Origin: Bacillota bacterium
GTDB lineage: Bacteria; Bacillota; Dethiobacteria; DTU022; UBA8154
Reading direction: 5' to 3'
DNA: 40,583 nt
NCBI GenBank assembly: GCA_030656575.1
Contig: JAUSPO010000016.1
Location: 1 to 40,583, forward strand
Of this stretch, positions 28,690 to 39,826 are shown in pieces. The position numbers and the translations under genes were made by a program. The notes beneath the pieces were generated by a model that was given only the letters and a program-made list of their open reading frames with translations, was not told where the DNA came from and ran no database searches. Numbering within the stretch: position 1 is the stretch's first letter; each line of letters opens with the position of its first letter.

Positions 28690-28851
28690 ATTTGTAATAG
28701 ATATATTCTTTTAAATAAAAATTGGGAAAAAAAAGATTTTTAGGGAGTTTGGGTATAAAATTGAAGGAATTACCACGAAAGTATAGAAACTATAAAATGT
28801 AGAAAAAAAATCCCTACTGATGTAATATGAGGAACAGTGGAGGAGATACCT

Positions 28852-30708
28852 TTGGACAGTAATAGAAAGCTGGACAATCTATACAGGAAGATGGAAGAGC
28901 TTACAGATAGCTTTCAATTTCTTGGTGACAATTGTTCCAAAGAAGCCGAAAAACTAAAAAATTCCGGCATGCCTCCCGATCCTCATTTTATTAAAGAATT
29001 AGAAAACGCAGCAGAGAAATTTAACTATATCAGATCAGAGCTTGAACAGGCAGCCGTGGAATTTTCCTGGAACGGTTTTAATGGACATGCCAATTCCATA
29101 TCCAAGCTGCAGGAATTCTGGAGTGGGCTTAGAGAACACCTCTCGGGTCAGTCAACTGAAGCAGATAGCGCTGGGCTTTATGCTGACGGCTCGCATGAAA
29201 AACCTGAGCTTGACAGCGCTACACTTCCTGTTGTTGCCAAACATAATAAATTTGAATTGACCGGTGGTATTCGTAGTGCCGACAAACCTGAAAAAACAGA
29301 AGCCGACCGCCCCCATATTTTTGCTACTTCTGTCGCCGCTGAATATCCTGCGGACGATGAATATGAAACATTTGGAGTGAGCGGTGATCTGCGGGCCCGG
29401 TATCCAGAGTTATTGTACAACCTTATTGAAGAGGAAAAACTGGGTCCGGCTTTTTGGCTTGCCTGTTATTACGAGCAGAATTTCGGAACAGCACCGGTTC
29501 CTTCCTGGTTGATAAAAGCTGCTGAAATAGCCTCTGCTGTGCAAGGTGAAGGAGGCCCTGCTTCGAAATGGCTTTCCTACCTCTACAAAAACTATAATTT
29601 CCATGCACTCTCCATAGATGAGGAGCTGTCCAGACGGACTGCTTTAAACCTGCTGGCCTATTCTGCTCTGCTTCGTCCGGCTTTTCTTGCCCCGGGCAGC
29701 GGAGCTGCTGCAATTTTAGAGAACCTGGATGATTTACCAGGGACACTGAAAACACTGGCCGCATCAGTGAAAGGTTTTAGCGGCACCGAGACTGAAGGTG
29801 CAGCAAGGCGGGATATAGATATTCTATGCAGTGAGGTAAAAGTTTGGAAAAAACAGAACCGGAAGCTGACCCTGGCATCTCCTGTGGCATCAAAGATATG
29901 GGATAAGATGCAGAATGGGGAAGGATTCCTTTCCAGACTACTTACTCCCATTGAGGAAAATGCCAAAGAAGAGCTGGAGAATATCCGTGAGCTTTTTAAT
30001 TACCTTCGGGAAAAAGAAAATCTTAAAAAGGAAATACGGAAACTCTACCAGGATATGCCCGAACTTCAGGATAATGTGGAGATTTTCCATGTTCCCGGTT
30101 CATGGCAGGTAATAAATCGCATGAAGAGCGCATTGAAGCTGGTAGAGCGGTGGATAAAGCTGCATGAAAATACTGATGGAATGGTGGGAATGGAAGAGAA
30201 TCCCCTTATTAAGCGTCTCTCCGAAAGCCTTGTTTCAGCGGGGAGAGAATTGGACGGACTACCCTGGCAGTACCAGGGAGATGCCTTTGTCAAAGCCGGG
30301 GCAGCCGCATGCACGCGCGCCATTGATTCTCTAAAAAGGCTTCTGGACGAAGAGATGGATACGATCTTTTCTCTAACGACTGATGATGTGGCTTCCCTTG
30401 AAACGGGAAATAATCCTCAACTCCTTCTTAAGCACAATTGGAAGCCTCAAAACAAGACAGTAGAGAAAATGGGGAAAGCTCTGCTTGAACTGCTGGAAGA
30501 AATGCCTTTAAGAAAAATAGAAAAAAAGGAAAGAAAAATAGATTCTTCTGCAGGGGTAATCCCATCGGTAAGCCCATCTTACAACCGATCTCAGGATGAA
30601 GTCCCCCGCCCAATACGGCCGGATCTTGATAAATTGTGCAGAAATGAAATTCTTACGGCACAGGAACGGGAATTTATCAGGGATACTCTAAAAAGCTTAA
30701 ATAGTTAG
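28852..30708 (+). CDS. Uncharacterised 618-aa soluble protein, first gene of the signalling cluster
   Basis: I do not recognise a family. The protein has no signal peptide or membrane helix. Residues 1-110 are helical and charged, likely coiled coil. Residues about 115-180 are a low-complexity acidic linker. A compact central part begins near YPELLYNLIEEEKLGPAFWLACYYEQ and continues with PVPSWLIKAAEIAS, the most conserved-looking stretch. The rest is mainly helical repeats, with a basic segment (KIEKKERK) before a final helix. TTG 28852 is chosen because GGAGGAG (28839-28845) lies in front; GTG 28837 overlaps that site. The next gene starts 18 bp later, so it is probably co-transcribed and may be a scaffold or partner for the SelA-like/GGDEF protein. 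Confidence 0.75.
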   Translation: MDSNRKLDNLYRKMEELTDSFQFLGDNCSKEAEKLKNSGMPPDPHFIKELENAAEKFNYIRSELEQAAVEFSWNGFNGHANSISKLQEFWSGLREHLSGQSTEADSAGLYADGSHEKPELDSATLPVVAKHNKFELTGGIRSADKPEKTEADRPHIFATSVAAEYPADDEYETFGVSGDLRARYPELLYNLIEEEKLGPAFWLACYYEQNFGTAPVPSWLIKAAEIASAVQGEGGPASKWLSYLYKNYNFHALSIDEELSRRTALNLLAYSALLRPAFLAPGSGAAAILENLDDLPGTLKTLAASVKGFSGTETEGAARRDIDILCSEVKVWKKQNRKLTLASPVASKIWDKMQNGEGFLSRLLTPIEENAKEELENIRELFNYLREKENLKKEIRKLYQDMPELQDNVEIFHVPGSWQVINRMKSALKLVERWIKLHENTDGMVGMEENPLIKRLSESLVSAGRELDGLPWQYQGDAFVKAGAAACTRAIDSLKRLLDEEMDTIFSLTTDDVASLETGNNPQLLLKHNWKPQNKTVEKMGKALLELLEEMPLRKIEKKERKIDSSAGVIPSVSPSYNRSQDEVPRPIRPDLDKLCRNEILTAQEREFIRDTLKSLNS

Positions 30709-30726
30709 AGAAAGAAAGGGAATGTT

Positions 30727-33267
30727 TTGAAACCTTTTATTAACGCCTCCGGAATACTATTTCAAGACGGTTTAAAGGAGCCTCCCCTTTCTGAGGAGGC
30801 TGTAAAAGCTTCTAATGCGGCAGCATATCATCACACAGGAATGGATCGTAATCCTGCTTTAGGACTCTCGGGTTACAAGCAGCTAAACGAATTTCTGTGC
30901 ACCTTTACAGAAGCTGAAGATGCTTTCGTTGTTAATAATGTTTTGGCTGCAGCCTTTATTGTTTTTCATACTCTTGCCCGGGGCAGGGAAATTATTGTTT
31001 CCAGGGAAGATATGCTCTCCGGAAAATTTTCCACTTCTCTTCTTGGTGTGATAACGCAGAGCGGAGCAAGGTTGAAAAAAGTGGGAAGGAAAGAAGGAGC
31101 CAGGCTGCAGGACTACAGCAACGCAGTGAATGACAATACTGCCTGTATTTTAAAGATAAGCGGGAACAACGGAAGGAGTTCTCTTGACGAGAGCGCCCTG
31201 GTATCCCTGGGAGAGAAACATCAGCTTGCGGTTGTCAAGGTTCTCGATCTTGCCACACTTTTAGACCTTACTCCATACGGGCTGCCCGAAGATTGGCAGG
31301 TTCAAAAGAACGTATCAGACAACTTCGACATTATTATTTTCTCAGGCGATAAGCTCCTGGGGGGGCCTTCACTGGGGATCATCACCGGTCAGGACAAGTA
31401 CCTGTCTCCCATAAAAAAAGATCCCCTCAACAAGGCATTACTAGCCGACAGGATGAATATGGCCGCCCTGGAGGCAACTCTGGAACTTTACCTTAATGAG
31501 GAAGCAGCCCTTCAAAAGATCCCCCTTTTGCGAATGATCACTGCTTCGCCGGGCAGGCTCGAGGAACGGGCACAGCAGCTTGCAGGGGAACTAAAAAATA
31601 CTTTCGGCAGCAGGTTTGAATTAGGATTCACCGGTGAAAAAGCTTCCATCGTGGGTAAATGCAGTGGTCCAGGCATACTGTCCAGCTGCCAGGTTTCCAT
31701 TGCATCAGCGGATCATTCCACCAGGGATATATGCGAGCTCTTGTATAAAGGCGATCCCCCTGTTATCCCAAGGGTAAAAAGAGGGAAAGTGCTGCTGGAC
31801 ATGAGGTCCGTGCCTGAAGAGGAAGATAAAGTATTATTGAAATCACTCCTTGACTCACTGATGGAAAAGGAGAAGCATGAAAACCTTGTGCTCGATACGG
31901 TTCCCAGTCTTATCTGGGTTGTTGATACGGAGAACAGTTTCCTTTTTGCCAACAAAGCATGTGGAATATTCTGGGGGATGGACCCTGAGAGCTTTATTGG
32001 TGTCAAAATGGGAGAAATTCTCAAAATGCAGGACAAGGAACTGCTCTTAGAAGCGAAAGAAAAAGTTTTCGCTCAGAAAGAAAATATGAAGATGGAAGTT
32101 AAACTTGAAAATTCTGAAGGAACGTATAGATGGCTCGATATCATCCTTACCCCTGTTTTTGATGGCAGAAACGGTATTTCCGCAGTTACCTATACGGCAA
32201 GTGATGTTACAGACCGCAAAGATAACGAAGAAGAGCTTAAATATATCGGCATGCATGATTCCCTTACGGGTCTCTATAACCGCCTATATTTCGAAGAGGA
32301 GATTCGCCGGCTGGATACGGACCGTAGTTACCCCATCAGCATTGTAGTCTGTGATGTGGACGGCCTTAAATTGATTAACGATATTTTGGGCCACAGCAAA
32401 GGCGATGAGCTTTTACAGGTTGCGGCCGGGATCATCAGGAAGCCTTTCCGAGCATCCGATGTGGTAGCACGTACAGGAGGAGACGAATTTGCCGTAATTC
32501 TTCCCACCACTGACGAAAATGTTGTCAAAGAGATTGCCGGGCGCATTAACAAAGCTGTAGAAGATTATAACATGGATAAAAAAAGAACCCCCTTTAGTCT
32601 TTCCGTGGGTTTTGCCACGGGAACCCGTGCCGTCGGGATTAGGGAGATATTAAAACAGGCCGACAGCAGCATGTATAAAAATAAATTTGAGCGAAGCGAC
32701 CTGGTAAAACGGACTTTTATCGATTCCCTCATGGGCTTTGTGGCTGAGAAAGATTTCAGAAATGAAGGGCAGGAAGAGCGTCTCCGGTGCCTTGTGCTTC
32801 TCTTGGGACAGGCTGTAGGTATGTCATTCGAGGAGATCAGGGATATTCTCCTTCTTTCCCGGGTGCTTGACATTGGCAAGGTAGGGATCGAAGAATCCAT
32901 ACTCTTTAAAAAAGAGCCACTAAATGATCAGGAATGGAATGAAATAAAATCTCACCCGGAGATTGGCTGCCGTATCGCCCGTTTTTCTCCGGAAATGTCA
33001 TCCATAGCAGATTTTATCCTGCAGCATCACGAAAGCTGGGATGGCAGCGGTTACCCCCGGGGTTTAAAAGGAAACAATATCCATATCTATTCCCGTATCA
33101 TATCAATTATAGATGCCTATGAAGCTATGACCAGCCCAAGGCCTTACAGGGATCCCCTTACCCACGATGAAGCTGTCGAAGAACTGAAAAAGAACAGCGG
33201 TATCCAGTTTGACCCAAGGTTGGTGGATATTTTTATAAACTTGATTGACCAGGAGTACCTGATTTAG
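30727..33267 (+). CDS. SelA-like PLP domain fused to PAS-GGDEF-HD-GYP (c-di-GMP signalling protein)
   Basis: An 846-aa fusion. Residues 1 to about 375 align along their length with the catalytic part of L-seryl-tRNA(Sec) selenium transferase: PLSEEAV, FVVNN, ILARGREIIVSRED-like text, QSGARL, FSGDKLLGGP (K209, the PLP lysine), AALEATLELYL, and DPPVIPRV. SelA's N-terminal tRNA-binding domain is absent, and several active-site elements (the RxxH and TTNRT-type motifs) are lost. A PAS domain (about 385-498) follows. The GGDEF domain has intact GGDEF at 584-588 and an RxxD inhibitory site at R575-D578. The HD-GYP domain keeps H743, HH 767-768 and GYP 775-777, but the HD histidine is L714 and the first His is missing. 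Predicted role: a cytoplasmic diguanylate cyclase with an unusual ligand-sensing head and a weakened phosphodiesterase. The start is TTG 30727 behind GAAAGGGAA (30714-30722). Confidence 0.9.
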   Translation: MKPFINASGILFQDGLKEPPLSEEAVKASNAAAYHHTGMDRNPALGLSGYKQLNEFLCTFTEAEDAFVVNNVLAAAFIVFHTLARGREIIVSREDMLSGKFSTSLLGVITQSGARLKKVGRKEGARLQDYSNAVNDNTACILKISGNNGRSSLDESALVSLGEKHQLAVVKVLDLATLLDLTPYGLPEDWQVQKNVSDNFDIIIFSGDKLLGGPSLGIITGQDKYLSPIKKDPLNKALLADRMNMAALEATLELYLNEEAALQKIPLLRMITASPGRLEERAQQLAGELKNTFGSRFELGFTGEKASIVGKCSGPGILSSCQVSIASADHSTRDICELLYKGDPPVIPRVKRGKVLLDMRSVPEEEDKVLLKSLLDSLMEKEKHENLVLDTVPSLIWVVDTENSFLFANKACGIFWGMDPESFIGVKMGEILKMQDKELLLEAKEKVFAQKENMKMEVKLENSEGTYRWLDIILTPVFDGRNGISAVTYTASDVTDRKDNEEELKYIGMHDSLTGLYNRLYFEEEIRRLDTDRSYPISIVVCDVDGLKLINDILGHSKGDELLQVAAGIIRKPFRASDVVARTGGDEFAVILPTTDENVVKEIAGRINKAVEDYNMDKKRTPFSLSVGFATGTRAVGIREILKQADSSMYKNKFERSDLVKRTFIDSLMGFVAEKDFRNEGQEERLRCLVLLLGQAVGMSFEEIRDILLLSRVLDIGKVGIEESILFKKEPLNDQEWNEIKSHPEIGCRIARFSPEMSSIADFILQHHESWDGSGYPRGLKGNNIHIYSRIISIIDAYEAMTSPRPYRDPLTHDEAVEELKKNSGIQFDPRLVDIFINLIDQEYLI

Positions 33268-33285: not shown

Positions 33286-34086
33286 ATGGAGAGAAATTTT
33301 AAAAAGAGTTTCTGGCAGTTGTATGCCCGGGTTTATGATAATGTGATGCTCTGCTTTTTGCCTTATCATCAGCTTCTTTATACAGTTACGGAAAAGCTTA
33401 ATCCTCAGGCCGGTTGGCATGTCTTGGATGCAGGCTGCGGCACGGGAAACTTCCTTCATCATCTCCTTCATTACCGCCCGGGTGTAACGGCTGTGGGGAT
33501 CGATTATGCTGATGCCATGCTGCACCGGGCGGCTGTTAAGATCAACAATAACAAGGACGTGGGGAAAGATGTTGTCCTGCAGGAAACCAATCTTAATTAT
33601 TCTATCCCCTTTAAAGAAGAGGAATTCCAGGGGGTAATTTGTGTTAACGTCCTCTATGCAGTGGATAATCCTGTATTCTTGCTGAAAGAGCTTTCCAGGG
33701 TTTTACAACGTGGAGGGAGGCTTGTTCTTGTTACACCGCCATTTCAACCCAGGATAGGCCCGGTTTTTAGAGAACATGTTTTACTGCTGAAAGAGAGGAA
33801 GCCTTTTTTATGGCCTTTTTCCCTGGCCGGCCGGATTTTATGCCTGGCGCCGTGGCTTTTCATTTTTTTAATTTTAAATATCTTTATTAAAAAACAACAG
33901 TCCTTCCATTTTTTCAAAAGAGAAGAACTCTTATCCCTGGTAAAAAATTGTGGTTTTGAACTTGTTTCCCTGGAAAAAGTCTATGGAGGCCAGGACTGGT
34001 TTTTGGAAGCTGTAAAACCCGCTGCTAAGGTAGAAACCGTGGAATCAGTATACAGCCCGGAGGGGGGAGTCGCTTGCCTGAGGTAG
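33286..34086 (+). CDS. Class I SAM-dependent methyltransferase
   Basis: A 266-aa protein. A Rossmann methyltransferase domain spans residues 35-150: motif I is VLDAGCGTGNFL, the acidic residue after strand 2 is in GIDYADAML, and motif IV is VICVNVLYAVDNP. Residues about 175-206 are strongly hydrophobic (LAPWLFIFLILNIFI), suggesting membrane contact or a lipid substrate, which is unusual for a generic UbiE-like enzyme. The C-terminal tail contains FFKREELLSLVKNCGFELV. The start is ATG 33286, 18 bp after the SelA-like fusion gene; its 3' end overlaps the ketosynthase gene by 13 bp, so the two are translationally coupled and probably act on the same product. Confidence 0.85.
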   Translation: MERNFKKSFWQLYARVYDNVMLCFLPYHQLLYTVTEKLNPQAGWHVLDAGCGTGNFLHHLLHYRPGVTAVGIDYADAMLHRAAVKINNNKDVGKDVVLQETNLNYSIPFKEEEFQGVICVNVLYAVDNPVFLLKELSRVLQRGGRLVLVTPPFQPRIGPVFREHVLLLKERKPFLWPFSLAGRILCLAPWLFIFLILNIFIKKQQSFHFFKREELLSLVKNCGFELVSLEKVYGGQDWFLEAVKPAAKVETVESVYSPEGGVACLR

Positions 34087-35288
34087 TTATTACCGGATTG
34101 GGGCCTGTGGCATCCAATGGTGTAGGGAAAGAAAACTTTTGGAACGCCCTTAAAGAAGGTCGGTCCGGAGTTCGCCGAATCAGCCGCTTTGATCCTTCAG
34201 GATATCCTTCACAGATAGCGGGCGAAATTCCTATGGAATGGATCCAGGAAGTGAAGCCTTACCACAAAAACGGCAGGGGGTGGAGCACCCATCTTGTTCT
34301 TACTGCCGCACACCTGGCTCTGCAGGATGCTGGAGTTTCCCAAAATGAATTTTCCTCGTTACGGTCAGGTATCTGGGTGGGTATCAGTTCTTCTGATATG
34401 GGGGTTTTGGAAAGTGAATACGAGATTTTTCTAGAAAGTGGTTTCACAAAGTCAACAAATCTTTTCGCGTCCTTTCCCCATGCGGCTGCAAGTGAACTCG
34501 CTGTTGAGCTTAAATGTTCGGGAGAGGTGGTTACTGTATCAGCAGGCTGCCCCTCTGGAGTATTCAGTATTATTTACGCTGTGAAGTCTATCCTTCAGGG
34601 AAATACAACGATGGCTTTGGCTGGCGGGGGAGATGCTCCTTTAACTCCTTCAGCTTATGCTTCTTTTTGTTCTGCCGGACTTCTTTCCTCATTATTTAAC
34701 CATGACCCTCAGGCTGCAAGCAGGCCCTTTGATGCCATGAGGGATGGAGGTGTTTTGGCTGAGGGAGCCGGTATGGTTTTACTTGAGGATGCCGAACAGG
34801 CTGCTTCCCGTGGTGCAAAAGTCTATGCCAGGATTGCCGGTTGGAGTACTTCCAATGCTGCTTCACCGAAGCAATTAAAAGCTTCGATTGTTTCCTCGCT
34901 GACCGGAGCCCTGCAGGTAGAGGGCCTTACTCCTGCCATGATAGATTATATTAGCGCTCATGCTCCAGGGGACAAGTTTATAGATAAAATGGAAACTAAG
35001 GCAATTAAAGAAGTTTTTGGAAGCCATACTTATAATTTACCGGTTAGTTCTATTAAATCAATGATCGGCAATCCGTTGGCCGCAGCAGGTCCTTTGCAGG
35101 TGATTGCAACTGCACAGGTTATTCAAGACAGGTTCATTCCACCTACTATAAATTACCATTTTCCTGATCCGTCTTGTGATCTGGATTGTGTGCCAAACAA
35201 AGGGCGTGTGGCCAGGGTTAATCGGGCAATTATAAATTTACATGGCATGGGGGGGGCTAATGCTTCCCTGGTCCTAACCAGGGAGTAA
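34074..35288 (+). CDS. Beta-ketoacyl synthase family protein (FabF-like) with Cys-His-Asn triad
   Basis: A 404-aa thiolase-fold condensing enzyme of KAS II type, beginning VVITGLGPVASNGVGK. The nucleophile C159 lies in SAGCPSG, and the first histidine H296 in ISAHAPGD (usually AHGTST). The second histidine, normally in KSMIGHxxGAAG, is N333 (KSMIGNPLAAAG). The gatekeeper FGFGGTN motif reads LHGMGGANA, with Met in place of the second Phe. Cys-His-Asn is the FabH triad, so condensation using an acyl-CoA starter, or a decarboxylase role, is possible. No ACP, malonyl transferase or other fatty-acid gene is nearby, which argues against bulk fatty acid synthesis. The start is TTG 34074 behind GGAGGGGGGAG (34059-34069). 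Confidence 0.88.
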   Translation: MPEVVITGLGPVASNGVGKENFWNALKEGRSGVRRISRFDPSGYPSQIAGEIPMEWIQEVKPYHKNGRGWSTHLVLTAAHLALQDAGVSQNEFSSLRSGIWVGISSSDMGVLESEYEIFLESGFTKSTNLFASFPHAAASELAVELKCSGEVVTVSAGCPSGVFSIIYAVKSILQGNTTMALAGGGDAPLTPSAYASFCSAGLLSSLFNHDPQAASRPFDAMRDGGVLAEGAGMVLLEDAEQAASRGAKVYARIAGWSTSNAASPKQLKASIVSSLTGALQVEGLTPAMIDYISAHAPGDKFIDKMETKAIKEVFGSHTYNLPVSSIKSMIGNPLAAAGPLQVIATAQVIQDRFIPPTINYHFPDPSCDLDCVPNKGRVARVNRAIINLHGMGGANASLVLTRE

Positions 35289-35291
35289 AGG

Positions 35292-37781
35292 GTGAGCAGC
35301 GAAATGAACCTTTCATTTTTAATTATATGGCTTTTGGGCTTAACTGCCGTGGTAAACGTGGTTATAGGGGTTGTTGTTTTTCGAAAGGCTCCTCATACAC
35401 TTCTTAACCGCCTCTTTCTAGGCTCAAGCCTGAATGTTTCGGCTTGGACACTGACGGTAATGGTTATTTTTATTAAGGTTGATTATGATAGTTTGCTTTT
35501 CTGGATCAGGGCTTCCCATGCCGTTTCGGCGATAATTCCCTGGTTCGTTTATGCCCTTGTCGATGTTTTCAATGATGAAAAAGCTTATCCTAATAAAAAA
35601 GTTATCATTATGTTTATATTTAGTCTGATCTTGGCTGTATTGAGCTTTACACCTGCAATAATTCCCGGGATAGCGGAACCTCTGGTTAATAAGGAAACGC
35701 TTTACGGCCCATTATTCCCAGCGTATGCCATATATTTTGGTGGGGCAATGATTTACACAATCTACATACTTTTCCGGCAGTTGCGTGTTTCACGGGGCCT
35801 TTCCCGTTATCAAATTCGTTATTTTATCGGTGGCATTCTTGTTTCTTATCTTTTAGGAAATCTTTCTAATCTTTTCCTCCCTTTGTTGGGGATAACGGCC
35901 ATTGACCTTCGTCCATTCGGACCTGTCTTTACCTTAATTATGCTAATATCTATTTCGTACGCCATTGTGAAGTACAGGCTTATGGATATACGTTTGGCTA
36001 TACGTAAGGTCTTGGCCTATATCATAACCATCGTTATCCTTGCAGGAATCTATGTTTTAATATTGCTGGGCATGGAAAAATATTTTAGAATTTATCTTGA
36101 AGCCAACATTCTTCCATTTATATTGTTCCAGATCATTCTTATAGCACTAGCTTTTCAGCCGGTAAAAGATAAAATCCAGTCTGTTGTTGACCGCTATCTG
36201 TACCGGGGAGCTTATCATTATTATGATACTCTCATCGAAGCCAATAAAGCTATGCTGTCAATTTTGCACATGGACAAGCTGCTAAATTTTCTTGTGGAAA
36301 AGGTAGTTGATACAATCTATATCGAAGGAGCAGTTATTTTTCAAAAAGATAAGTATGGCTTCTTTACTGTTGCCGCAGAAAAATTACAGTTTATTTCTTC
36401 TCAGGTTACTTCCAGGTTGCTGGAACCTGGGAACGCACTTTTGGATTATCTGGAAAAAAATGCAGAGGTACTGCTGCAGACAGATTTAAAACATATGGCT
36501 GTTGCCGCCCAGCGGACGTTATTAGTGGGAGAAATGCGTAAACTGAAGGCGGAAGCAGCTGTGCCTATCCTTATGGAAGGAAAGCTGGAGGCCATTTTGT
36601 TTCTGGGATTCAAGATATCCGGCGAGCCGTATTCCAGAGAAGATGTCAATTTACTTTCAGCCCTTAGTTACCAGGTGGCTGTATCATTAAAAAATGCCCG
36701 CTTGTATAAAGAGGTTTTGGAGATCAAGCAGTACCTGGAGAATGTCCTGGAAAACATGGACAACGGGCTGATCGCCGTAGATGCTGAGGGAAAAATTACC
36801 ACCTTTAACAGTACTGCAGAGAAGCTTACAGGCATACTTTCCGGTGATGCGATGGGCAAAAAAGCAGATGAAGTATTGGATGCAAACTTGTATCCTTTCA
36901 TCATGCAGGCACTTCGAAATGGGCAGCAAAGTAGCGAAGTGGAGGTGGAAGTGAATTCAAAAACGAATACAATTTATCTGTGCTGCAGCACTGCGCTGGT
37001 TGAATCCCTGGAGACGGGTGAGCGGGGGGCAATCATGGTTTTAAGCGATATAACCCGTATCAAAGAACTGGAGAGAGAAAAGAGCCAGGTACAAAGGTTA
37101 GTTTCCCTGGGCGAACTGGCCGCAGGGATGGCTCACGAGATAAAAAACCCTCTTGTTTCTATCAAGACATTTGCAGAACTTCTCCCGGATAAATATGACG
37201 ACTATGAGTTCCGGTATACCTTTTCCAAAATTGTTAAAGGAGAAATTGAGAGAATTAACAAGTTGATTACGGAACTACTTAACCTTTCCAGGGCTCATGT
37301 GCCCTGTTTTGAAGAAGTGGATACGGGAGTGATTATGGATGAAATACTTCTCCTGCTCTACCCACAGCTTGGCTCCCAAAAGATACGGTTAATGAAGACC
37401 TTTGAAAAGAATATGCCGGCTGTAAGGGCAGACCGGGACCAGATCAAGCAGGCCCTTTTAAATATCTGCTTAAATGGTATTCAGGCCATGCCCGGGGGAG
37501 GGGAACTCAGGGTTGAGATTGCATCCCTGCACTCACCTCAAAAGAATAGTCATGATTCAGCTCGACGGATGGTTAAAATCGGCATTCAAGATACGGGGAT
37601 GGGGATTAGCCCAAAACAGAAAGAGAAGATATTTGACCCATTTTTTACCACGAAGGCTGAAGGTGTGGGAATCGGCCTGAGCATAAGTCATCGAATTATA
37701 GCAGACCATGGTGGGACCGTGCAGTTTCGCAGTGACGAAAATGGGACAGTTTTTGAAATTGCCCTCCCGGCAGTAAGCTAA
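35292..37781 (+). CDS. Membrane sensor histidine kinase (7TM-GAF-PAS-HisKA-HATPase)
   Basis: An 829-aa protein. The N-terminal 290 residues have about nine membrane helices; the first seven resemble the histidine-kinase 7TM sensor domain. A GAF-like domain follows (about 315-470), then PAS (about 485-590). HisKA has H615 in GMAHEIKNPL. The ATPase domain has N724/N728 (NICLNGIQAM), G1 box DTGMGIS (767-773) and G2 box GVGIGLSIS (791-799), all intact, so it should be active. The start is GTG 35292 or ATG 35304; AAAGGGTGAG (35287-35296) could serve the latter. It begins three bases after the ketosynthase gene. The natural reading is that it senses a membrane-soluble ligand, possibly made by the two enzymes upstream; that link is inferred. 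Confidence 0.93.
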   Translation: MSSEMNLSFLIIWLLGLTAVVNVVIGVVVFRKAPHTLLNRLFLGSSLNVSAWTLTVMVIFIKVDYDSLLFWIRASHAVSAIIPWFVYALVDVFNDEKAYPNKKVIIMFIFSLILAVLSFTPAIIPGIAEPLVNKETLYGPLFPAYAIYFGGAMIYTIYILFRQLRVSRGLSRYQIRYFIGGILVSYLLGNLSNLFLPLLGITAIDLRPFGPVFTLIMLISISYAIVKYRLMDIRLAIRKVLAYIITIVILAGIYVLILLGMEKYFRIYLEANILPFILFQIILIALAFQPVKDKIQSVVDRYLYRGAYHYYDTLIEANKAMLSILHMDKLLNFLVEKVVDTIYIEGAVIFQKDKYGFFTVAAEKLQFISSQVTSRLLEPGNALLDYLEKNAEVLLQTDLKHMAVAAQRTLLVGEMRKLKAEAAVPILMEGKLEAILFLGFKISGEPYSREDVNLLSALSYQVAVSLKNARLYKEVLEIKQYLENVLENMDNGLIAVDAEGKITTFNSTAEKLTGILSGDAMGKKADEVLDANLYPFIMQALRNGQQSSEVEVEVNSKTNTIYLCCSTALVESLETGERGAIMVLSDITRIKELEREKSQVQRLVSLGELAAGMAHEIKNPLVSIKTFAELLPDKYDDYEFRYTFSKIVKGEIERINKLITELLNLSRAHVPCFEEVDTGVIMDEILLLLYPQLGSQKIRLMKTFEKNMPAVRADRDQIKQALLNICLNGIQAMPGGGELRVEIASLHSPQKNSHDSARRMVKIGIQDTGMGISPKQKEKIFDPFFTTKAEGVGIGLSISHRIIADHGGTVQFRSDENGTVFEIALPAVS

Positions 37782-37834: not shown

Positions 37835-39826
37835 TTGAAGCTCGTTATTCTTGTAAGCAATGAAGAGAGTACTCTCAGGGCAATTAAAGATTATATACCG
37901 GATGAATATACCCTCATGGAGTGTAATATGGGCTCTAAAGGGTTACAGATGCTGAAAAACATCGTTTCAGCCGTGGTCCTGGTGGATACGACGGTCCATG
38001 GCGCCCTCTCCTGGATAAAGGATGCATCTGCAAAGAGGCCTGACTTAACCTATCTCTGTATTTCCAACGAAAAAGAAAAAGACTTGGACAATTCTCTCTA
38101 CAAATACTTTTACGATTTTATCTATCTGCCGTTTCTCTCCAAACAGGTGAGCGTTACCCTGGAAAGGGCCTGGGAAAGGGTGCAGCTTCGTTTTGAAGTG
38201 CAGGACCTCAAAAAAATGGGGTCCGGCTTGGAGAAGACAAGGCAGGCCAACTTTGAACATCCATCGAAACTGCCGCGAAAAGAGCGGATCCTCTGTGACT
38301 TTTCCCGGGCGTTGAGCAGCAACTTTAATGCAAAACGTCTTATGGAGCTGTTCATGAATTCGGTAACGGAGCTAGTCCCTGTTGGAAAGCTGTCCATACT
38401 TCTGTATGACGAAACCCTTGAAGAGTACAAGGTTGCGGCACAAAACGGTTTGGACCCGTGTTTTTACGCAGGCCTGCTCTTTCGTTCTTCCTCGGGATTG
38501 ATGTCCTGGCTCCTTGAAGAGGGGCGTATCCTTCGTACGGATGAACCGGCCTGCAGCCCGGCTTTTAAAAACGAAGCTCTTCAGGAGCTGAAACTGCTTC
38601 ATGCGGTCGTCTGTATACCGCTTTTGGCCCACGGTCAGCTGGTCGGGGCTCTCAATCTCGGACCGAAGGTGACCGGTTCTCCTTTTCACGACGAGGAGCT
38701 GGAAATCCTTTATATTCTCTGTGGAAATGTTGCCATGGCCCTGCGCGATATTGGGCTCCATCATCAGATCCTAAATCAGAAAATATATATTGAAAATATC
38801 CTTCAGCGTATGAACAGCGGGGCCGCAGCAATAAACAGGGAAGAACGTATTATTACATTTAACAGCCGGGCGGGGGAGCTTTTGTCATTGTCCCCGCAGG
38901 AAGTTATGGGTGAAGACCTGCGGAAACTTCCCAGCCCTCTGGGGGATTTACTCTATGAAACAATGACTACGGGGAAAGCTTATTTAAAAGAAGAAGTGAA
39001 TCTTGCTGAGGCCCGCATTCCCCTTGAGGTTAACACATACCAGTTATCGAATGTGGACGGAGAAGTCCTGGGAAGTGTCATGATTTTTGACGATATATCG
39101 GCCAGGAAGCAGCTCGAGGCGGAACGCCGGCAGGCCGACCAGCTTGATGTCCTCAACAAATTTGTTGGCCAGCTTGCCCATGAGATTAAAAATCCCATGG
39201 TTGCCATTCAGACCTTTTCTGAGCTTTTAACTGAGAAGTATGAAGACAGCTCTTTCCGTGAATTTTTTACCTATACAGTGCGGCAGGAAGTTAAAAGGTT
39301 AAACGAGCTTGTTGAACAGCTTATTGCTTTCTCCACTTCACTTTCTTATAAGTACATCCCTGTTGATGTTCATGAAATCCTGGATATGGGGCTCTTACTT
39401 CTGCAGGAACAGGGGATGGGGCAGGAGACTACAGTTGAAACATCCTATAACGGTGGCAGTTTAAACCTCAGGGCGGATAAGACAATTATGGCGAGGGCTT
39501 TTTCATATCTTTTGCGTAATTCTTTCAAGTCAGTGGAGAAAGGGGGAATGATCCATATTGATACATCCTATATAGATAACATGTTTCCTTCAGGTGGGGG
39601 TGTCAGTATTCGTTTCTGGGATATAGAAACGAAAGTGGGGAAGGAAGATGTGGAAAAAATGTTTGATCCCCTCTCTTCGGGAAACAATGGTTATATTTCC
39701 CTGGCCCTGCCTGTAAGCAGGAAAATCATTGAGGATCACGGTGGATTCATCAAGGCGTCTGTTACAAAGGATAAATCTCTTGAATTTGAGGTTTCCTTGC
39801 CGATATTTTTAGGTGAAGGGGGATGA
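37835..39826 (+). CDS. Soluble histidine kinase paralogue with degenerate receiver and ATP-binding domains
   Basis: A 663-aa protein without membrane helices. Residues 1-115 resemble a receiver but lack the acidic pair (SNEE instead of DD) and the conserved Lys; D51 remains (VVLVDTT). A GAF domain (about 155-310) and PAS domain (about 318-425) follow. HisKA has H449 in QLAHEIKNPM. In the ATPase domain N562 remains (LLRNSFKSV), but the G1 box reads WDIETKVG (D596, no glycines of D-x-G-x-G) and the G2 glycines are missing (SSGNNGYISLALPV). Its HisKA region is closely similar to that of the upstream kinase, so it looks like a duplicate that has lost kinase chemistry and may serve as a dimer partner or phosphotransfer relay. 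The start is TTG 37835 behind GGGAGGAAG (37820-37828). Confidence 0.88.
   Translation: MKLVILVSNEESTLRAIKDYIPDEYTLMECNMGSKGLQMLKNIVSAVVLVDTTVHGALSWIKDASAKRPDLTYLCISNEKEKDLDNSLYKYFYDFIYLPFLSKQVSVTLERAWERVQLRFEVQDLKKMGSGLEKTRQANFEHPSKLPRKERILCDFSRALSSNFNAKRLMELFMNSVTELVPVGKLSILLYDETLEEYKVAAQNGLDPCFYAGLLFRSSSGLMSWLLEEGRILRTDEPACSPAFKNEALQELKLLHAVVCIPLLAHGQLVGALNLGPKVTGSPFHDEELEILYILCGNVAMALRDIGLHHQILNQKIYIENILQRMNSGAAAINREERIITFNSRAGELLSLSPQEVMGEDLRKLPSPLGDLLYETMTTGKAYLKEEVNLAEARIPLEVNTYQLSNVDGEVLGSVMIFDDISARKQLEAERRQADQLDVLNKFVGQLAHEIKNPMVAIQTFSELLTEKYEDSSFREFFTYTVRQEVKRLNELVEQLIAFSTSLSYKYIPVDVHEILDMGLLLLQEQGMGQETTVETSYNGGSLNLRADKTIMARAFSYLLRNSFKSVEKGGMIHIDTSYIDNMFPSGGGVSIRFWDIETKVGKEDVEKMFDPLSSGNNGYISLALPVSRKIIEDHGGFIKASVTKDKSLEFEVSLPIFLGEGG

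Follow-up and report, generated by a model that had tools for sequence, protein, structure and literature searches.

A SelA-derived N-terminal domain fused to a PAS-GGDEF-HD-GYP protein in Bacillota: a candidate input module for c-di-GMP signalling

Here we describe a gene of a Bacillota bacterium that joins, in one protein, a domain derived from selenocysteine synthase (SelA) to PAS, GGDEF and HD-GYP domains. The gene lies in a window of 40,583 nucleotides (the whole stretch of DNA that was analysed), and its counterparts occur in ten further genomes. In our preferred reading, to which we give a probability of roughly 0.6 on the sequence evidence, the SelA-derived part (hereafter the head) is probably non-catalytic and would gate a diguanylate cyclase by way of a ligand or a partner. 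No published account of a SelA-GGDEF fusion was found in the open-licence literature searched, and no paper there treats SelA, GGDEF and pyridoxal together, which is weak evidence of novelty.

The fusion gene is a single unbroken open reading frame that starts at a TTG codon and encodes 846 amino acids (Table 1). Its product matches, in Pfam, SelA over residues 5-362 (E 1.7e-72), PAS_4 over 389-498, GGDEF over 509-654 (E 4.8e-35) and HD_5 over 672-832 (E 2.5e-30). Upstream of the TTG the frame can be extended by only six codons before a stop is reached (852 versus 846 residues), so the tRNA-binding N-terminal domain of SelA is truly absent from the head. A preliminary description, made from the letters of the sequence, had proposed both the SelA match and the loss of this domain, and both proposals hold. 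In the AlphaFold model the head has pLDDT values mostly of 80-95; the whole-chain pTM is 0.49, and the overall arrangement of the domains in the model is correspondingly weak.

Table 1. Features of the fusion locus in the window, numbered from its first nucleotide
Feature	Position	Strand	Basis
Helical 623-aa protein, upstream of fusion, no known family	28837..30708	+	Pfam, fold search, co-occurrence
AGAAAGG, ribosome-binding-site-like, before TTG start	30714..30720	+	Direct sequence reading
Fusion gene, SelA-like head + PAS + GGDEF + HD-GYP	30727..33267	+	ORF translation, Pfam
SelA-like head, residues 1-378, without tRNA-binding domain	30727..31860	+	Pfam SelA E 1.7e-72; Z 42 to SelA
K209, counterpart of A. 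aeolicus SelA PLP lysine K285	31351..31353	+	Alignment
PAS domain, about residues 383-498	31873..32220	+	Pfam PAS_4
GGDEF domain, residues 509-654; motif 584-588; I-site 575-578	32251..32688	+	Pfam, alignment
Degenerate HD-GYP domain, residues 672-832; HD pair = LD	32740..33222	+	Pfam, alignment
SAM methyltransferase, fusion operon	33286..34086	+	Pfam, orthologues
FabF-like ketosynthase, fusion operon	34074..35288	+	Pfam, orthologues
Histidine kinase 1 (7TM, GAF, PAS, HisKA, HATPase)	35292..37781	+	Pfam, orthologues
Histidine kinase 2 (GAF, PAS, HisKA, degenerate HATPase)	37835..39826	+	Pfam, orthologues

That the head belongs with SelA and not with another PLP-enzyme family, as had also been proposed, was borne out at several levels. 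It scores 264.6 bits against the NCBIfam selA model, just below the equivalog cut-off of 267.9, and 51 bits against the DgaE ammonia lyase family (TIGR01437), for which the cut-off is 385. SelA structures were the best matches in a sequence search of the PDB, and the head model superimposes on SelA over 367 residues with Z 42, an rmsd of 2.1 and 30% identity, versus Z 29 for DgaE and Z 28 for Cap15. These two also belong to the SelA superfamily and also have no tRNA role, but both are structurally far from the head, and DgaE is far from it in sequence too. With L-seryl-tRNA(Sec) selenium transferase itself (SelA; TIGR00474; PDB 3w1h, 8uzw) the head has in common the whole fold of the catalytic core and, in the window protein, the PLP-lysine motif GDKLLGGP, in which K209 is embedded as FSGDKLLGGP. 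In phylogenetic trees the heads group together, separate from genuine SelA: one branch sets all of them off, with support of 99/99 in a tree without G140, and of 100/100 after G140 and the SelAs of further families were added, although the heads of G014 and G067 sit on very long branches and their exact placement is unsure.

In the Aquifex aeolicus enzyme, K285 binds PLP, R86, R312 and R315 bind selenophosphate, the selenophosphate-site residues are positioned by R119 and D284, and the loop 218-224 is crucial for joining one dimer to another (PMC4607533). Across 43 aligned genuine SelAs the functional residues are kept, the sole exception being R86, which lies past the cut end of the SelA of the window genome. 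The heads differ throughout. At the positions of R86, R312 and R315 the window protein has E, K and L; R86 is E, S or K across the heads (Q beside a gap in G140), R312 and R315 are changed in every one, and G007 is the only head with R119 unchanged. The earlier claim of altered selenophosphate-handling residues is thereby supported. The DxGSG motif is likewise lost from every head, and with it D247 (A. aeolicus numbering), which the 43 genuine SelAs retain and which we take, from fold-type I enzymes generally, to be the partner of the PLP ring nitrogen. The dimer-dimer loop is mostly deleted (positions 221-224 in the window protein), though its length is preserved in G067. The PLP lysine is retained in the window protein, G021, G018/G022, G019, G007 and G006, and is replaced by Arg in G140 and G067 and by Gly in G014.

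With the tRNA-binding domain, the selenophosphate arginines, the decamer loop and the DxGSG motif gone, the head is not expected to synthesise selenocysteine. SelAs truncated at the N-terminus, HP1513 of Helicobacter pylori for example, likewise have neither the tRNA-binding domain nor the dimer-dimer region, but they keep R86, R312, R315, R119 and D284 and stand alone (PMC4607533). A tRNA-linked ligand for the head is less likely, since the head no longer has the tRNA domain and has lost most of the dimer-dimer loop. Sensing through bound PLP, as put forward in the preliminary description, is not supported in that form, D247 being absent from all heads and the lysine from three of them (G140, G067 and G014); binding of PLP by the window protein itself is possible. 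Of 87 columns that are near-invariant in SelA, 21 are kept by all six main-clade heads, including most of GDKLLGGP, and 32 are lost by all. The main-clade heads have also gained invariant residues, among them R86E, T192K and N193E, which argues for a new constrained role of the head. Identity between the window protein and the rest of the main clade is 48-54% in the head and 68-78% in the GGDEF output domain, the head thus evolving faster. The head of G006 (L064:10911-12215) carries a low-complexity insertion rich in Asp and Thr.

In the output half, the GGDEF motif is intact in all eleven members and the RxxD I-site in all but G140 (CISD); in the window protein the I-site is R575-x-x-D578 (RASD). 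The tail had been described as PAS, intact GGDEF with an RxxD site, and HD-GYP, and the GGDEF part of that description stands. The HD-GYP domain, however, is degenerate: in the window protein L714-D715 stands in place of the HD pair and there is no upstream His, with HHE and GYP retained. That His is missing in every member, and the HD pair is lost in most (LD, YD or YN) and retained in G021, G018/G022 and G006. The HD-GYP part probably has no phosphodiesterase activity, and because of this degeneracy the expected output of the fusion is that of a diguanylate cyclase. The fusion shares its output half, including the intact GGDEF and I-site, with PAS-GGDEF-HD-GYP proteins of c-di-GMP signalling, and differs from them in the SelA-derived head and the degenerate HD-GYP.

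A survey of genomes for proteins carrying both SelA and GGDEF, which had been suggested as a check, covered one phylum systematically and returned the fusion in 11 genomes, as 10 distinct sequences from six genera, one of them from another class. At the family level (23 genomes) the carriers are G000, G006, G007, G013 (partial), G014, G018, G019, G021 and G022. Among these, G018 (L060:3621-6185) and G022 (L061:11973-14537) are listed as separate species yet have identical DNA across the fusion gene, and they were counted once. The order (71 genomes) added one fusion from another family (G067), the remainder of the class, which brings the total to 98 genomes, none, and a phylum sample of 398 genomes one more, in G140. 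Since G140 is isolated in its own class, with the fusion in no other of its 113 genomes, horizontal transfer of the operon is suggested; the G+C content of this operon (0.56) is near that of its flanks (0.57 and 0.59). Long open frames overlying SelA in G189, G105 and G151 proved to be frame artefacts of GC-rich DNA. In a scan of genome contigs, which reaches close relatives only, all of the 23 loci inspected, out of 26, held SelAs without GGDEF. Directly upstream of a genuine selA in G004 lies a PAS-GAF-GGDEF-HD gene (L101:808-3516); it was rejected as a source of the fusion, G003 and G005 of the same genus having no GGDEF-HD match beside selA.

The window genome retains a SelA proper, truncated where its contig stops, together with SelB (both on contig 146), and has a SelD match (L077) with one in-frame TGA, SelD being itself a likely selenoprotein; selenocysteine use in this organism therefore looks live. 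Nearly all relatives have SelA, with or without the fusion, so that co-occurrence of the two is uninformative.

The gene order 623-aa protein, fusion, methyltransferase, ketosynthase, kinase, kinase and REC-HD-GYP recurs in G021, G022, G007 and G140, and in G019 with the methyltransferase missing. G014 has neither the methyltransferase nor the ketosynthase beside its fusion, and the G067 contig, which is short, has neither of them; G006 encodes the 623-aa protein and the fusion on different contigs. The window contig ends before the expected position of the REC-HD-GYP gene; in the relatives' operons this protein has intact HD, HHE and GYP motifs. No sel gene was found in the fusion operon. Several of the neighbours are unusual in their own right. 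In the active site of the ketosynthase the Cys and the first His are retained, but Asn replaces the second catalytic His (KSMxGH) in six of six orthologues (KSMIGNP), giving a Cys-His-Asn set. In the second kinase the G1 box for ATP binding is degenerate, with WDIETK in place of the usual DxGxG, again in six of six orthologues, and the N-terminal stretch of this kinase looks REC-like by eye. Sporulation-type genes, SpoIID among them, are also present in the window and fit the phylum Bacillota.

For the all-helical 623-aa protein, Pfam gave nothing above the cut-off and a fold search nothing at E 0.001. Within the order this protein marks the fusion locus; 12 of the 71 genomes encode it, and it is nearly restricted to genomes with the fusion or with a version of it that has no head. 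Its carriers are all fusion genomes of the order except G013, whose contig starts inside the fusion gene, plus G020, G012 and, with a weak match, G039. In G020 and G012 the 623-aa gene, which holds one stop codon in G020, is followed by a PAS protein that matches the second half of the fusion and has no head; both headless genes are cut by contig ends, and about their first 150 residues are visible. The G012 protein retains IILIDLKSALEKREEPILNILLSSLEG, a match to the last residues of the head, and this remnant suggests that the G012 lineage has deleted the head. With two headless versions at the same locus, one of them bearing a remnant, the head is a removable module.

We therefore propose a working model on the strength of these comparisons. 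The protein would be a diguanylate cyclase with an N-terminal regulatory module recruited from SelA, the fold having been kept and selenocysteine synthesis lost. The head would probably form a SelA-type dimer and not a decamer, and would bind a partner or a small ligand within the former active-site cleft, PLP being just one candidate. The signal would then pass from the head through the helix 364-378 to the PAS domain and on to the GGDEF dimer, setting c-di-GMP output; in other sensors, coiled-coil rearrangement activates GGDEF dimers (PMC12805367). At the level of the operon, the kinases would drive a phosphodiesterase, for which the REC-HD-GYP protein of the relatives is the likely candidate, and the fusion would be the opposing cyclase, gated by head and PAS. 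The closest parallel we see is with the MocR/GabR regulators, in which a fold-type I PLP-enzyme domain is the input: aminotransferase activity of GabR is dispensable for regulation and PLP-bound ligand drives an open-to-closed change (PMC6522883). Those regulators belong to the aminotransferase branch and have a DNA-binding output, whereas the fusion combines the SelA branch with GGDEF, and its PLP binding is only putative. The Pfam scan found neither a wHTH nor an aminotransferase domain in the fusion protein, which is thus GabR-like in logic and not a member of that family.

The gating model has to be weighed against readings in which the head either does more or does less. The invariance of K209, D208 and the whole of GDKLLGGP in the six main-clade heads would also fit retained PLP chemistry, and the head could still be an enzyme acting on a small substrate, in a bifunctional protein whose turnover or external aldimine drives the cyclase; H. 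pylori SelA, which keeps its catalytic residues without the tRNA domain, hints at such small-substrate activity (PMC4607533). We regard this as unlikely, given that every head has lost D247 with the rest of DxGSG as well as the three selenophosphate arginines, that the lysine has become Arg or Gly in three heads, and that two orthologues have no head at all. The same headless orthologues, along with the very long branches of the G014 and G067 heads, can be read in the opposite direction, with sensing left to the PAS domain alone and the head serving only as a dimerisation scaffold or persisting as a decaying remnant. That too is improbable in our estimate: the main-clade heads hold their 21 SelA-invariant columns without exception and have gained new invariants of their own, and no member has an interrupted frame, although the sequences have diverged by about 50%.

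Direct descent from the SelA fold, in a genome that has SelA, SelB and SelD, raises the further idea of a selenium-status switch, in which the head would report selenocysteine synthesis to c-di-GMP by pairing with SelA or by binding one of its substrates. We consider it very unlikely: the parts that would serve it (tRNA domain, selenophosphate residues, most of the dimer-dimer loop) are lost, SelA is near-universal in the relatives regardless of the fusion, and the operon is devoid of sel genes. As for a false joining of two genes, a concern raised at the outset and understandable in a draft genome of 195 contigs, the recurrence of the same junction across six genera, in 10 distinct sequences and thus in independent genomes, refutes it for all practical purposes.

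If the gating model holds, the logic of GabR, in which a PLP enzyme has become a sensor, would extend to second-messenger signalling. The head appears to be an undescribed c-di-GMP input domain, derived from a translation-machinery enzyme, and its natural headless and lysine-less versions are a ready comparison set for its function.
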